Assembly (NCBI GenBank): GCA_018673955.1
Contig: JABHBJ010000086.1
Span: forward strand, 1-64,000
From: Chloroflexota bacterium
Lineage (GTDB): Bacteria; Chloroflexota; Dehalococcoidia; Lucifugimonadales; Lucifugimonadaceae
Length of the DNA: 64,000 bases
Direction: 5' to 3'
This document shows positions 598-34,324 of the stretch, piece after piece. The translations under genes and the position numbers were made by a program. Below the pieces are notes generated by a model. The model did no database searches. It was not told the DNA's origin and was given only the letters and a program-made list of their open reading frames with translations. Positions within the stretch are counted from its first letter, which is position 1; every line of letters starts with the position of its first letter.

Positions 598-3446
598 CTA
601 CCCAGCCTAATCGGTGGACCCGAGTGGTTTCCGTTGCATTCAGAAGTAACAAAAGCGTAATTGCAATGACCTCAATATTATTGAGCTGGGGGACAGTACA
701 AGCTGCTCTGAAAATTTTAACAATGTTCGCGCCGACTGAAAATATTATCGCTCGCACCCTTCGTCACCAGATGGTTATTGTGCTCGCGCTGGTCGCCGTT
801 GTGTTTGCTTTCGGTAGCAACGGCGCGAAGGCTGAAGTGAGATCGGCAGATATTGAAGCTGTTTTCGGTATGGCGGTTGAAGTACGACCACCAAGCGCAA
901 TTGTGATCGCTTCTAATTCAGGGCTTATTACTCTCACGTTCGATTCTGACTCAGAGTTGCGAATTGGTTCAAATAAGGCTGCGGTCGAAGAAGTTGCAGA
1001 AGGCGACCGAGTGATTTCGACTGCTGCTCGAAATGCGGACCATGATCTTGTAGCGCTGAGAACTCTCGTGCGGGTTGCCAATACCCAGACGCGTACGAAG
1101 CACGTCGTGGGTGTGGTGAGCAGTGCTTCTGTTGACGAGATATCGATTCAGACTCGTAATAGTGGCGTTGTGAATGTGCTGATCCCAGCAGGAATTGACG
1201 CTCCATCTGTTGGTGATGGAATAACTATGGTTGCGCGGCTGGATCGATCTAGTGGAATTTTGACAGCGGTTGGTTTCCAACTAACGAGCACGACTGTCGA
1301 GCGAATTCAGGAAGCTCAAGATAAGGCCGCTGATGAGGCGGAGTCTGCTCGTTTGGCCCAAATCGCTATCAATGCTAGGACTCAACATCTTTCTTCTTTA
1401 GACGATGCTGCGCGAGAGCTAAAACGAATACTAGATTCGGATATCGAGGATCAGGTGATGCTCGATAAAACAGCTGCCCAGTACCAAGAGATTCAACGTC
1501 GATTCGAAGAGCTCCAGCGAATCTACAAGACTGCTGCACGAACTCGCGGTGAGGTTCAACCGCTGCTGAAAATATCAGGTGGACTGGTTGATGACATTGG
1601 ATCTTCATCATTCACGATAGTTCCGAATGGTGAACAGGACGCTAATCCGTTCTCGGTCAGCTTCCGTTATGACGGAGAAGAGACGGCTGTTTATCTACCG
1701 AAAGATTTACTCGCTAAAATTTCTGACACGACATCGAATCCACAGTTATTGAATGAAGTTCGTCGATTGATTGATCTGGGTAGTGAGCTTGAAGTTATGT
1801 ACTTGATCGACGGTGACGCGCGTAAGGCGGTTTCGGTTAGCGTGCGTGAGCCTCGGCTTATGAGTGAGTTGGAGGCAGTTCTAGAGCACGAATCACGCCG
1901 AGCATTTAGCGGCGTTATTACTCTCGTCGAAATTGACATGTCACTTGATGATGCACTTGGCATTGTGATTGCTACGAATGAGAAACAGGGAATCAAAGTA
2001 GCTGCGAAAGTTACTGGTGAAACTACCATAACTGTAGATGGACGTTCATCTGATATTTCTTCACTCGATGCGGGTCAGGCCGTTGATATTCAGTTCGAAT
2101 CTTCGAGCGAAAACTCAATTTCAGACATCACTGGATCTGACATCACGCTTAGAGCGCTGGCAATTCACGCACGTTCGAGTGCACCATCCGAAGAGGATCA
2201 TATTTCGGGGATAGTCGAATCGGTGGATTCTGCTGCCGTCACGATTCGTCCGACTGATGGAGTGCTGGTTCGACTAACTGTTGGTGATGACGCGCAGATT
2301 GTTCGCAATGGCAATGTTGCGGTTATTACTGACTTGAAGATTGGTGATCTGGTAGTTGATGCCACTCGGCCTGATAGTGAATCCGACGAACTTACGAGGT
2401 TGATAGTTGTAGCACGTAAGAACGTGAAGTTTTCAGGTACTGTCACTGGGATTGGTCGTGAGCCTGATCGACTTCAGGTGACGGGTGCTAACGGTCAGTC
2501 GCTTAACGTTTTGATTACTGACGATACCTGGGTGATTATTGATGAGCGACGGGTGAAATTTGGATCAGTAGTCGCAGGAATGAATATAGTCAATGGCGTG
2601 TATTCGGTGACTGGACGTGGTGGAACGTTATATAACGTTGGAACGATTATTTCGATTGAATCTCCCAAAGTTGGCAAGGCTTCTGGGATCATCACCAGTG
2701 TGAATGCTATCGAAGGCACGCTAAGTGTACTTTCCGGTAAATCAACCGAAACGAGGTTGATCGAACTGCAAATGCCTGAAACTCCCCTCGGCGAAAATCT
2801 TATTAAAGACGGTGTGCTGATTCGGTCGCTGTTAGATATTGAGCGTGGTGATAGAGTCGACATAGTTTTCTACGTACTAGATTCGGGGATTGTTCAGAAG
2901 CTTTCGGTTGTTTCCGATAACTTCATTCAATCGCGCGGAACTCTTGCGAGCATTCCAGATAGTGGCCGATATGTTGTAGTGAATTTAATTGACGGTCGGG
3001 AATTCGAACTTTGGATAGGGCGTGACTCTTCTATTCAGTTGAATGGCCGGCGTATTCAATCGTTAATACCAGTGACGGATCTAATTTCAGAGGCACGTCA
3101 TCTCGGTTTAGACGTGAGTACGTTGGTGCCTGAAGTGCTGTTTATCAGAGATTCCATCGATTCGAATTTGGGTGTGATTATTTCGGTCAAGTTCCAGATC
3201 AAGTCAGAAGTCGAATCCTGGAGTACCAACTCTGCACATCAGGCCACTATTGAACTGAGCATGTCTGGTGTAATCGAGGCGATTGACGGCAAAAACTGGG
3301 TAATCAACGGTCGAGTATTTACAGTGAATCAAGCGACAACATTCCGGGGAAGAGATCCCGAGGTGGGCGAGGTAGTTGTGGCTGTGCTGATCAGTAGACC
3401 AGGCGGATCATTCGTAGCTCGGTCTATCAGTAAATCGGGTCGTTAG
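594..3446 (+). CDS. Large exported protein with multiple DUF5666-like repeats and a coiled-coil segment
   Basis: ATGA overlap with upstream stop; recurring 'SGxVxxVxxxxxxI....' modules with beta-rich DUF5666-like pattern; internal hydrophobic/signal-like segment near residue 60. Confidence 0.6.
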   Translation: MTTQPNRWTRVVSVAFRSNKSVIAMTSILLSWGTVQAALKILTMFAPTENIIARTLRHQMVIVLALVAVVFAFGSNGAKAEVRSADIEAVFGMAVEVRPPSAIVIASNSGLITLTFDSDSELRIGSNKAAVEEVAEGDRVISTAARNADHDLVALRTLVRVANTQTRTKHVVGVVSSASVDEISIQTRNSGVVNVLIPAGIDAPSVGDGITMVARLDRSSGILTAVGFQLTSTTVERIQEAQDKAADEAESARLAQIAINARTQHLSSLDDAARELKRILDSDIEDQVMLDKTAAQYQEIQRRFEELQRIYKTAARTRGEVQPLLKISGGLVDDIGSSSFTIVPNGEQDANPFSVSFRYDGEETAVYLPKDLLAKISDTTSNPQLLNEVRRLIDLGSELEVMYLIDGDARKAVSVSVREPRLMSELEAVLEHESRRAFSGVITLVEIDMSLDDALGIVIATNEKQGIKVAAKVTGETTITVDGRSSDISSLDAGQAVDIQFESSSENSISDITGSDITLRALAIHARSSAPSEEDHISGIVESVDSAAVTIRPTDGVLVRLTVGDDAQIVRNGNVAVITDLKIGDLVVDATRPDSESDELTRLIVVARKNVKFSGTVTGIGREPDRLQVTGANGQSLNVLITDDTWVIIDERRVKFGSVVAGMNIVNGVYSVTGRGGTLYNVGTIISIESPKVGKASGIITSVNAIEGTLSVLSGKSTETRLIELQMPETPLGENLIKDGVLIRSLLDIERGDRVDIVFYVLDSGIVQKLSVVSDNFIQSRGTLASIPDSGRYVVVNLIDGREFELWIGRDSSIQLNGRRIQSLIPVTDLISEARHLGLDVSTLVPEVLFIRDSIDSNLGVIISVKFQIKSEVESWSTNSAHQATIELSMSGVIEAIDGKNWVINGRVFTVNQATTFRGRDPEVGEVVVAVLISRPGGSFVARSISKSGR

Positions 3447-3498
3447 ATCCAGGTCAACCGGATGCGTTCGTTCTTTGCCTGAGATGTATTGAACGTTG

Positions 3499-4827
3499 CT
3501 AGTTGAGCGATTCGAACCGATTTCTTTCACGATATGTTCGTCGTGTTAGCTGTCGAGCTTTTGCCGCGACGCGCCCTGCTGGTTCTAGGCCCAGTGCGAG
3601 CGGAATCGATATCACCAGCACCACTGCTAGCGTCGTGAATCCCAGTCGGTAGCTGTCAGTTCCGTCATAAATAAAGCCGACGAGAGCGGGCCCGGCTGCA
3701 CCGAATAGGGCGTTAACCGAACTGGTAAGACCTACGATAGAGCCATAGCTAGTTCTGCCAAAGTAATCTCCCAGTATTGAGAGTCTGAGGGGTATTGATG
3801 ATCCAAATCCTAGTCCAAAGAATACGACGAACAGCGGCAATGGCCAAAGACCAAGGTTCACTCCTAATACTTCGGCGTTTATCCCGGCGAGCCCTGCCAC
3901 TCCGACAGTTTGCATAATCATCGCAATAGTGAGCATTTTGCGTTTGTCGAAACGATCGCCGATTACTGCGATACCGGCTCGACCACCGAGATCGCCAATT
4001 GCGACTGCTCCTGCTGCAGCCGCAGCTAACGCGGCGGTCATGCCGTAGTCTAAAAGGGCCGCGAAGTGAAACAGATTGGTTGAACTGACAAGCTGGCCGA
4101 GGCTAGTGACAATTGCGAGTTGCCAGAAGAAACGTAGTTTGATGGCTTGTCGCATTGTGATGGCTTGTTCTCGGATTCCACCGGCGCGGTTTGTTTTGCC
4201 ATTGACTGAGCCGTCATCATCCGTTTCACCATCGGGAAGCATGCCGTAGTCTTCTGGTCGTCTCCGCATGACCAGCGTCGCTGGAAATCCGATTAACCAG
4301 AATCCGATTCCGCACGCCAGCATTACTTCTCGCCAACCGAACGTATCGATTGACGCTACGAGGATCGGAAGGGTGATTCCTCCGATTGCCGAGAACGACA
4401 TTAGCACCGCTAGAGCTCGTGCGCGCTTTCGTATAAACCAGTTGGCGACGGTAGCTACAAATACGATGAATGTCCCGAACGACATTCCGAGGGTGAGCAA
4501 CGCTATGGCGATGTAAAACTGCCAAAGCGATTGCATTTGGCTCATATAGACGAAGCCACCGCCGGTAAGGAGAACACCGAACGCCATCGCCTTGCGTGGT
4601 CCGTACTTGTCGAGAATTACGCCGACAAACGGTGAGATCATGCCGCTTTCGCCACGTTGGAGCGATATGGCCGCCCCGGTTACGCCTCTGCTCCACCCAA
4701 ATGTTTCTAATATTGGCGGGACGAACGCTTGAAATCCGCGCCAGAAGATTACAGATGTGTACCACTGGACTACTCCACCTGCTCCGACGATCCACCATCC
4801 GTAGAATGGTTGTTTGAACGATTTCAT
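3499..4827 (-). CDS. MFS transporter (OFA/monocarboxylate-like)
   Basis: 442 aa, multiple TM segments, 'DKYGPRKAMAFG' MFS loop motif. Confidence 0.85.
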   Translation of the reverse strand: MKSFKQPFYGWWIVGAGGVVQWYTSVIFWRGFQAFVPPILETFGWSRGVTGAAISLQRGESGMISPFVGVILDKYGPRKAMAFGVLLTGGGFVYMSQMQSLWQFYIAIALLTLGMSFGTFIVFVATVANWFIRKRARALAVLMSFSAIGGITLPILVASIDTFGWREVMLACGIGFWLIGFPATLVMRRRPEDYGMLPDGETDDDGSVNGKTNRAGGIREQAITMRQAIKLRFFWQLAIVTSLGQLVSSTNLFHFAALLDYGMTAALAAAAAGAVAIGDLGGRAGIAVIGDRFDKRKMLTIAMIMQTVGVAGLAGINAEVLGVNLGLWPLPLFVVFFGLGFGSSIPLRLSILGDYFGRTSYGSIVGLTSSVNALFGAAGPALVGFIYDGTDSYRLGFTTLAVVLVISIPLALGLEPAGRVAAKARQLTRRTYRERNRFESLN

Positions 4828-31008: not shown

Positions 31009-32013
31009 TTAGCCGTTTGCGATAGTTTGGTCGAGAGCTTCAATGAGTTCAGGCTTTGGCGCAAAGTTTTCGAATCGATGAGTGACGAAGCCGTCTTTTC
31101 CGACGATGAACGTCCATTCCTGAGATGAGAGTCCCCATTCTTTGAGTATTGGCGTGAGCCGGGCTTTGCTGAGGTCGCCTTGAATTTCGTGAGGATTGGC
31201 GTAGAGATCGACGTGGACGAAATCGATTTTATCTCCGTAGTCGTCCTGCAGTTCACTGGCTATTTCTACTTGCGGTCCGCATACAGCGTTTGTGCAGAAT
31301 GCTGGACTGGCAAATACGATCAGTAGTGGACGATCATGTTCGAGTGATTCTGCGATTGAGTGCTGGTATAGATCCTGATCCCTAAGGCTACCAGTAGTGA
31401 GCGTGGCGATATCGCCAGTGCTTGCGACTGTTCGACTTTCACTTGCGGGTGCAGGTTGCCCGACGGTTATTGAGTGGGCTTTTTCGGCGACTGGGAACCG
31501 AACTTCGACGTGAGCACTCGATCCGTCGGCCCGAGGGATTTCTGCGGATACTGACCACAGACCCGGACGGTCGAATTCGAGATCGGTCGTGTGAATTCCG
31601 CGTGTGCCGAGCGGGAATAGGAAGAATCGAGCTAACGCAGAGTTTTCGATTTCAGCGTTGGGTTCAGCGTCATATCCATCGGGGAAGTGACTCGCTGTCA
31701 GCTTTACGATTGGGAACTTGATAAGACCGAAATCGTCGCTCAGCACGACACCGAATCGTTGTATTCCTACTCCTAGGTCAGGAGTCGAGAGTTCGAGATT
31801 GATTTGTTCAGAAATGACTGTCCAGATTGGCGCTAGTTCAGTGAAAGAGGAGAGTTCACTGGATAGCCCTGATTCTTGAGATGATGTTTGCGTGTAATCG
31901 TGGGAGATCACTTCGGGGTTTCCAGACGATCCGTAAGCCGCGATGGCGGCTAACGCTAAACCTGAGAGCACGAGTGTTAACCATCGGAAATGAGATGTGT
32001 TGGATGCTGACAT
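31009..32013 (-). CDS. Membrane-anchored thioredoxin-fold protein
   Basis: N-terminal TM; 'DRPLLIVFASPAFCTNAVCGPQVEIASELQDDYGDKIDFVHVDLY ... WTFIVGKDGFVTHRFE'. Confidence 0.75.
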   Translation of the reverse strand: MSASNTSHFRWLTLVLSGLALAAIAAYGSSGNPEVISHDYTQTSSQESGLSSELSSFTELAPIWTVISEQINLELSTPDLGVGIQRFGVVLSDDFGLIKFPIVKLTASHFPDGYDAEPNAEIENSALARFFLFPLGTRGIHTTDLEFDRPGLWSVSAEIPRADGSSAHVEVRFPVAEKAHSITVGQPAPASESRTVASTGDIATLTTGSLRDQDLYQHSIAESLEHDRPLLIVFASPAFCTNAVCGPQVEIASELQDDYGDKIDFVHVDLYANPHEIQGDLSKARLTPILKEWGLSSQEWTFIVGKDGFVTHRFENFAPKPELIEALDQTIANG

Positions 32014-33233
32014 TAAATCCCACTCTCGTTGGCGCCAAAGGTAAACGCGAATATAGCAAAGTCATCGGAGTCGGAGGCGAGTTTAACTATGTGCTCCCCA
32101 AATCGAGGTGTTTCGAGGAAGGCGTATAAGCGTGGCTCTGTCACTGTGAAGTAGGAGCGGCCGTCTTCACCAAATATCACGTCTATTCCAGCTTCGTCTG
32201 CTTTGAGTGGCCGACCGTCGATTTCAATGTAGACGTCGTATGGCTCGGTTCCAGAGAGAGTAACTACTACGTTGGCGCTTCTACCAACGAACTGGAAGGC
32301 TATGTAATCATCGAGATTGCTGGTGGAGCGGGCGTGAGTGATAGATTCAGGGCCGTTCGTCCATAATCCTTGTAGATACCACTGCTGCGAAGTGTAGTTT
32401 TCGTCGTCAACGTACTCCCGAGTAGAATCCGGCTCGATGTAGTACTGATCCTGACCTGCGTACAGTCCAGACTGTGTGTAATTGCGTTCGTACCCGGCAT
32501 AAAGTTCACGAGTGACTCTATCGGCAACTGGGTCGCGGTCGACTGAGTTGACGTTGCCTATTGGAATATCAGAAACGTCCCATCCTGCTTCAGTTAGTGC
32601 TTCACGAATAGCGTGTTCAGTTTCGACGTAAGAGCCTTCGCCGAAATGCCGATAGGTGAGTTGTCCATCGATACCGATGAGATATTTTGCAGGCCAGTAT
32701 CGGTTGCCGAACGAGCGCCAAGTGTCATATTCGTTGTCAAGTACGACTGGCCAGCCGATTCCCTCGCGTGCGATAGCAGCTTGAACGTTGTCGATTCGCT
32801 CTTCGAATTCGAACTCTGGTGTGTGTACTCCGAGAATAACGAGCCCGTTATCGGCGTACTTTGCGTGCCACTCCTTGAGGAACGGAAGAGTCCGTATGCA
32901 GTTAACACACGTGTAGGTCCAGAAATCGACGAGTACGACTTTGTTATCCGCAGTTTGATCGGCAATTTTCAGCCCTTCGGAATTTAGCCATTCGTTGCCC
33001 CCGTGAACTTCTAGTACACCATCTTGATAAGTTGGCAGCGGGAGGGGGCGGGTCGCCGTGGGAGCCAGTGACAGAGTAGCGGATGGAGTATCTGTGGTAG
33101 TGGTTAACGTGGGGCGAGGGGCAACTTGAGTTGGTGAGTTTGCTGGGTCAAGATTCTCGCCGCAGGCAACTGCCGCCATGGCGATAATTGCAGCGACAGC
33201 TGACCATATGAGGAGGGTTTTGTAGTACTTCAT
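32013..33233 (-). CDS. Thioredoxin/redoxin lipoprotein with DipZ-like C-terminal domain
   Basis: Lipobox AVAC; VDFWTYTCVNCIRTLPFLKEW; C-terminal 'SANVVVTLSGTEPYDVYIEIDGRPL'; stop overlaps the start of 31009-32013 (TAATG). Confidence 0.88.
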   Translation of the reverse strand: MKYYKTLLIWSAVAAIIAMAAVACGENLDPANSPTQVAPRPTLTTTTDTPSATLSLAPTATRPLPLPTYQDGVLEVHGGNEWLNSEGLKIADQTADNKVVLVDFWTYTCVNCIRTLPFLKEWHAKYADNGLVILGVHTPEFEFEERIDNVQAAIAREGIGWPVVLDNEYDTWRSFGNRYWPAKYLIGIDGQLTYRHFGEGSYVETEHAIREALTEAGWDVSDIPIGNVNSVDRDPVADRVTRELYAGYERNYTQSGLYAGQDQYYIEPDSTREYVDDENYTSQQWYLQGLWTNGPESITHARSTSNLDDYIAFQFVGRSANVVVTLSGTEPYDVYIEIDGRPLKADEAGIDVIFGEDGRSYFTVTEPRLYAFLETPRFGEHIVKLASDSDDFAIFAFTFGANESGI

Positions 33234-33460
33234 TCGGATTTAGTGGGAGTGGTGATGCACAGTGGTTCAAAATGTGGGGCGATTTGTGCCGATATGATCG
33301 AGCCGTCGTATGTATGTAACGCGGCTACTCCGGTTTCGGATTTAGGGTTAGCTCCACTAAGAGATAAAAGAGCGCCGGGGTCGAGGTCTTTTTCAGGCTC
33401 GTATCTACCGAGCGATGAAGTAATGGGCTGTTCGATACTGGCCTGAATGTTGCCCTTCAA
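33230..33460 (-). CDS. Small ORF (76 aa) fitting exactly between rhodanese stop and redoxin start
   Basis: TTG start abuts the rhodanese TAG; stop overlaps next start as ATGA; all minus strand. Confidence 0.45.
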   Translation of the reverse strand: MKGNIQASIEQPITSSLGRYEPEKDLDPGALLSLSGANPKSETGVAALHTYDGSIISAQIAPHFEPLCITTPTKSE

Positions 33461-34324
33461 CTATGTGAGGCCTTCGATTGGGCAAGATGGCACTTCAGCC
33501 CATTCTCGCCAAGAGCCGTCGTAATCACGAACTTTGTCGAATCCGACTAGTTTGAGAGTCCAGAATCCGTGCGCCGCACGGATGCCGCCCTGTCAGTATG
33601 TGATGACGTTTTTATCTGGCGTGATTCCGTATTCTGAGAGCAGGTTACGAATTTCATCTGCAGTCTTCAGCACAGGAATGTCGCCTTCTGTCATGAAGTT
33701 CGCCCACTCCAGGTGAACTGCTCCTGGAATGTGCCCGCCGCGTGGGCCTCCGCGTTTGTTGGCACCAGTCCATTCATCATCCGAGCGTACATCGAGGATG
33801 ATCATTGCGCTGTCGTCGATAGAGTCGAGCACGCGCTTTCGTGAGGCGAATATTTCACGGTTAGTTTTCGCTGTAAACGATCCTGATTTCCCTGCTGCAT
33901 TCAGTGGTGTTTTAGTAGTTTCACGACCTTCAGCTACCCATTTTTCTAGTCCGCCGTCGAGGATTTTTACGTTCGTGTGTCCGTAGTAGTGGAGCGCCCA
34001 CATGAGTCGGAACGAGTAGACGCCACCACCACGATTGTATCCAACTACTGTCGTCTCATCGCCGATTCCGAGCCCGGACATTGTTTGTTCGAACTGCTCG
34101 GGGTTCTGAATATGAGTGCGTTCTTCAAGTGAAGTTTTGTAATAGTGATCGACTGGGTTCACTGAGTTCGGTATATGCCCTTGTTCGTACTTTTTGGGTA
34201 CGTCGGTATCGACGAGTCTTACGTTTGGGTCATTGATATGTTCGGCGAGCCAATCTGTTGTGACGAAAATTTCTGGCGTTGTGTATCCGCGATCAGTTGG
34301 TGGGATAATTGGTGGAATGGTCAT
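33461..34324 (-). CDS. Two-domain rhodanese sulfurtransferase with in-frame TGA at the active-site Cys: candidate selenoprotein
   Basis: ...EYGITPDKNVITY[TGA]QGGIRAAHGFWTLKLVGFDKVRDYDGSWREWAEVPSCPIEGLT*; TGA occupies the C of the CxGxxA-type active-site loop; TGA at 33593-33595. Confidence 0.8.
33565..33583 (-). promoter_or_regulatory. Candidate bacterial SECIS hairpin downstream of the in-frame TGA
   Basis: Minus strand: TGA CAGGGCGGC ATCCGTGC-GGC-GCACGGAT; 8-bp perfect stem, loop begins after 17 nt. Confidence 0.65.

Follow-up and report, generated by a model that had tools for sequence, protein, structure and literature searches.

On the minus strand of the window, i.e. the whole stretch of 64,000 nucleotides of Chloroflexota DNA that was analysed, a rhodanese gene whose product has two domains (thiosulfate/3-mercaptopyruvate sulfurtransferase of the COG2897/SseA type) spans positions 33461-34324, running from an ATG at 34324 to a true stop TAG at 33463-33461 and encoding 287 aa when an in-frame TGA at 33593-33595 is read as a residue, namely predicted selenocysteine (Sec) 244. 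Two rhodanese domains are recognised (PF00581, E 3e-41) and the best solved relative is 1uar (E 8e-46), the predicted rhodanese fold being settled by homology to solved rhodaneses. The TGA aligns with the catalytic Cys of the homologues and opens the active-site motif U-Q-G-G-I-R-A-A-H-G, while protein homology runs on beyond it to the TAG. The Cys-type rhodanese/3-mercaptopyruvate sulfurtransferases of known structure (1uar, 3hzu, 1urh and 1rhd) share with this protein, by sequence, the two-domain family and the place of the active site; they differ by a thiol where the SAR202 form has a predicted selenol, as well as by the active loop, which reads CRIAER in 1uar and CRIGER in 3hzu vs. UQGGIR in the SAR202 form.

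Regarding the neighbourhood, the downstream gene (32013-33233, minus strand) encodes a thioredoxin-like protein of the TlpA/ResA type with a CVNC motif and a C-terminal Thioredoxin_10 domain, which keeps its place beside both the Sec and the Cys forms of the rhodanese. It is followed on the same strand by a second gene (31009-32013) with a CTNAVC motif and no Pfam family, the place of which is conserved in near relatives. On the opposite strand are hemA and hemL, and the gene arrangement around the rhodanese is conserved among relatives. The gap between the rhodanese and thioredoxin-like genes is filled by a small open reading frame of 76 aa with a TTG start (33230-33460 of the window, minus strand), which could be recognised in the two closest relatives alone and is perhaps not a real gene.

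Read directly on the minus strand, the TGA (33595-33593) is followed by a spacer of 9 nt, CAGGGCGGC (33592-33584), and then by a hairpin at 33565-33583 composed of the 5' arm ATCCGTGC (33583-33576), the loop GGC (33575-33573) and the 3' arm GCACGGAT (33572-33565). The stem is perfect over 8 bp and the loop lies 17 nt from the TGA, exactly as described in the initial annotation of this DNA, which had also proposed folding the region after the TGA. RNA folding returns precisely the 8-bp stem and the GGC loop, together with short outer helices beneath (predicted by single-sequence folds at 33557-33591), with an MFE of -16.9 kcal/mol over 45 nt, -19.7 kcal/mol over 54 nt (z -1.7) and -24.1 kcal/mol over 61 nt (z -3.2). 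The evidence for the element thus comprises sequence and folding as well as the orthologue comparison and covariation presented below. Besides, the same genome encodes a second tandem rhodanese, of the Cys type (L157, G000 contig C5:77981-78775), with 33% identity and the active loop CQTAVR; by eye, no hairpin stands at the corresponding downstream place, making this gene an internal control.

In the model that Zhang and Gladyshev proposed for bacterial SECIS elements (bSECIS), here taken from PMC13188914, the loop lies 16-37 nt from the UGA inside the open reading frame and contains a G, its size is limited, the upper stem has 4-16 bp and the MFE is at most -7.5 kcal/mol. With its 3-nt loop starting with G, its spacing of 17 nt, its 8-bp stem and its MFE of -16.9 kcal/mol over 45 nt, the hairpin agrees with all four published criteria, in keeping with what had been claimed for it at the outset. 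Compared with the general model, the rhodanese loop (GGC or GUC) ranks among the smallest allowed and the spacing is close to the minimum. The element also resembles the SECIS of epsilonproteobacterial selenoproteins (PMC4607533), for which the part of that paper considered here describes an inner hairpin of 5-6 bp, an invariant loop G and covariation support; the latter differ in belonging to other gene families and another phylum, and the same part of the paper holds no contrast with Cys orthologues. Rfam gave no match at the hairpin site.

Viewed without its relatives, the hairpin stands out only slightly and constitutes modest evidence; it is the orthologues that make the evidence strong. 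Over both strands of the window, a perfect Watson-Crick stem of at least 8 bp in bSECIS geometry follows 4 of about 2,400 TGA triplets, one of the four being the opposite strand of the rhodanese palindrome itself. Among the 27 TGAs of the window that continue an open frame for at least 100 codons, only that of the rhodanese has a stem of more than 6 bp, and a scan of the other in-frame TGAs in the window yielded no stem comparable to it; by eye, the long extensions behind these other TGAs resemble out-of-frame or antisense translations. With the peptide held constant and synonymous codons sampled according to their frequency in ordinary genes, 2.2% of trials produced an 8-bp stem and 3.6% an equally low MFE. 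A null drawn from codon usage including the stem codons gave 6.3% for 8 bp, which was too generous, and was replaced by the former.

Under the standard code TGA terminates, and open-reading-frame callers end the gene there, in which case the protein would stop at residue 243 and the downstream part would be a decayed remnant, or the TGA itself a sequencing error. This reading is extremely improbable. The TGA is found in 19/19 distinct same-genus orthologues (among them Ca. Lucifugimonas marina CP046147 and further SAR202/Dehalococcoidia bins), as well as across several families of the order, and homologues have Cys; with an isolate genome (CP046147, L050) and many independent assemblies among them, a sequencing error is already refuted. 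Past the TGA, constraint persists at codon positions 1 and 2 (0.13 and 0.10), and that part is therefore translated, while a product of 243 residues would be deprived of its catalytic residue. Very probably, the in-frame TGA is a Sec codon at the rhodanese active site rather than a stop.

The comparison that carries most weight sets the aligned site of 42 distinct TGA orthologues against that of 25 Cys homologues. The initial annotation had named two outcomes that would speak against a SECIS element, namely a stem equally frequent in Cys orthologues and a stem not conserved among the TGA orthologues, and the opposite was found in both respects: at least 5 contiguous loop-proximal pairs are kept in 41/42 TGA orthologues vs. 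0/25 Cys homologues, these being related sequences and not independent events. Mean MFE is -17.2 kcal/mol in the TGA forms vs. -9.7 kcal/mol in the Cys forms. The loop is GGC or GTC in relatives and its leading G is invariant across all TGA orthologues; mismatches among the Sec orthologues are found in L035 (C-A in pair 6) and in L029 and L118 (both in pair 3). Because conservation of the outermost A-U pair ends with the near relatives, the selected element is made of the inner 6-7 bp and the G[G/U]C loop.

That the palindrome could be a by-product of the conserved IRAAHG peptide and codon bias, devoid of RNA function, draws on the 2.2% of synonymous recodings yielding such a stem but is hardly credible in view of the orthologues. 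Several Cys forms have the identical peptide QGGIRAAH and encode it with AGG, GCA, GCT and CAT codons that disrupt the stem. Within the genus, third-position differences amount to 0.085 in stem codons 248-253 vs. 0.608 upstream and 0.544 downstream, i.e. synonymous sites are frozen in the stem codons only; GCG-GCG is fixed in 31/31 Sec orthologues with IRAAH, the mean share of the commonest codon being 0.59. Moreover, covariation among orthologues, another check put forward in the initial annotation, reveals compensatory changes at three pairs (UA to GC; CG to GC or AU; GC to UA), with a covariation score reached by 0/500 shuffles. Two long-branched lineages (L138 and L143) show the GC-to-UA change through the paired replacements A250S and H252N, where the protein, judging from these substitutions, follows the RNA.

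The imprint of the RNA on the protein extends to residue 253, whose codon provides the GG pairing with the CC of the stem. This residue is Gly in 38/42 Sec forms vs. 0/18 Cys forms, the latter being those nearest to the family, and because of this contrast the RNA stem appears to dictate the protein sequence at that position. The proposal that the palindrome encodes the conserved IRAAHG stands, but not as the mere coincidence of structure and coding constraint originally envisaged, since the choice of codons, and even of amino acids, is limited by the stem.

The genome is that of a marine SAR202 bacterium (Ca. Lucifugimonas genus) and encodes the complete Sec set, namely a tRNA-Sec with a TCA anticodon, SelA, SelB and SelD, with profile scores of 326.9 bits for SelB and 515.9 bits for SelA, both exceeding the cut-off. 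Strong GC-rich hairpins can serve other functions, and an intrinsic terminator, attenuator or mRNA-stability element with the UGA read otherwise, e.g. as Trp, was thus considered, but this is most unlikely as there is no T-run after the stem, the hairpin occurs only with the TGA and is absent from Cys orthologues having the same gene neighbours, the homologues have Cys and not Trp, and the tRNA-Sec anticodon matches the codon. Of note, the genome's own selD gene (L166:1228-2538, plus strand, G000 contig C96) itself has an in-frame TGA at 1531, within the motif SCAGUAGK, with a hairpin behind, and SelD is probably a selenoprotein itself. A SECIS motif common to the whole genome was sought and discarded: the rhodanese gene is the only place with a perfect match to the core CGTGCG[G/T]CGCACG, the SelD hairpin differs in sequence from the rhodanese hairpin, and no genome-wide SelB consensus was found.

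Taken together, the hairpin is almost certainly a genuine bacterial SECIS, with the UGA read as selenocysteine 244 of a full-length tandem rhodanese. When bacteria insert Sec, SelB attaches to the SECIS at its loop and upper stem and delivers Sec-tRNA-Sec. Here, the hairpin directly behind the UGA in the mRNA would bind the C-terminal part of the SelB of this genome, which would deliver Sec-tRNA-Sec to the UGA for insertion of selenocysteine 244, and the product would be a full-length tandem rhodanese with a selenol in place of the thiol as catalytic nucleophile. By its expected chemistry, this selenol may take up sulfane sulfur from a putative donor as a selenenyl-sulfide (E-Se-S) and hand the sulfur over to a thiol acceptor, perhaps in concert with the thioredoxin-like proteins of the neighbouring genes, by which the selenenyl-sulfide could possibly also be reduced.

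Among 60 related genomes, SelA scores above cut-off in 39/39 with a TGA orthologue and the TGA in 0/7 without SelA (Fisher p 3e-4, uncorrected for relatedness). Four genomes (G028, G034, G047 and G059) keep SelA and nevertheless have a Cys-form rhodanese, and Sec is therefore not required for the role of the enzyme. A maximum-likelihood tree built from 59 proteins shows 6 changes of the TGA/Cys label, with the family's Cys clades nested in TGA lineages. This agrees with Sec having come first in the family and Cys having replaced it later, a direction read from the nesting; it also agrees with some of these switches having taken place in genomes that lack SelA and others in genomes that retain it (G028 and G034).

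Beyond the order, the 28-nt core of TGA plus hairpin is sparse (3/151 genomes, own included). The other two occurrences are L173 (G171 contig C27:33122-33149) and L172 (G180 contig C58:12094-12121); one of their host genomes belongs to a different class of the phylum, the other to a different family within the class of the SAR202 genome. A TGA rhodanese with an identical hairpin core (CGTGCGGCGCACG) is found at L055:758-1576, on a contig assigned by binning to Deltaproteobacteria/Myxococcota, which reflects horizontal transfer or else misplacement of the contig. Besides, a distant rhodanese of a Planctomycetota (L060, match 3001-3792; 32% identity) has a TGA at the same active-site codon, although its loop motif (U-GSGQRSS) differs and so does the hairpin that follows, and is possibly an independent Sec rhodanese.

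A Sec-containing rhodanese-related sulfurtransferase of COG2897 (SseA) with a predicted SECIS was already reported from the Sargasso Sea (Zhang et al., 2005; PMC1088965, Table 1, Figure 3, AACY01016424), and the GOS survey listed a Sec rhodanese, cd01449, with 8 sequences (PMC2398784). In reviews, COG2897 is listed with MQG53192.1 (PMC9312934) and a "Rhodanese-like domain-containing protein form 4, UxxG" is given (PMC13188914). The protein described here resembles these reported COG2897 rhodaneses in its tandem rhodanese organization, in UxxG at the Cys site (here U-Q-G-G), in a predicted bacterial SECIS just past the UGA and in its marine origin; it is a well-supported addition to a selenoprotein family known since 2005 and not a new kind. 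The earlier reports present 3 and 8 metagenomic fragments with predicted folds, the hairpins being likened by description only, whereas what is added here are SAR202 genomes including a cultured strain, the machinery, the Sec/Cys contrast and the compensatory evidence. In the literature searched, no paper linking SAR202 with a Sec rhodanese was found, and the SAR202 cultivation paper makes no mention of selenium.

The added value lies in the Sec/Cys contrast, in the amino-acid imprint of the stem and in a cultured host permitting tests. While ordinary annotation would call this gene truncated or split, whereby the catalytic residue is lost, the family offers an unusually clean natural test of the bSECIS, where the same peptide occurs with or without the TGA and the stem is kept or lost accordingly. 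SAR202 is an abundant deep-ocean group, and because cultured Ca. Lucifugimonas marina JH1073 (L050) carries an orthologue, its selenium use is directly testable. On balance, it seems rather probable that the SECIS stem has governed the evolution of the active-site protein sequence, with base pairing holding Sec lineages to Gly253 and Ala-Ala-His (or Ser-Ser-Asn), and with lineages that changed to Cys set free to carry Ala, Val, Thr or Ser at that position; the active loop of the whole SAR202 enzyme family would then have been shaped by an RNA signal and not by catalysis alone, and selenium-dependent sulfur transfer would be widespread and ancestral in SAR202.
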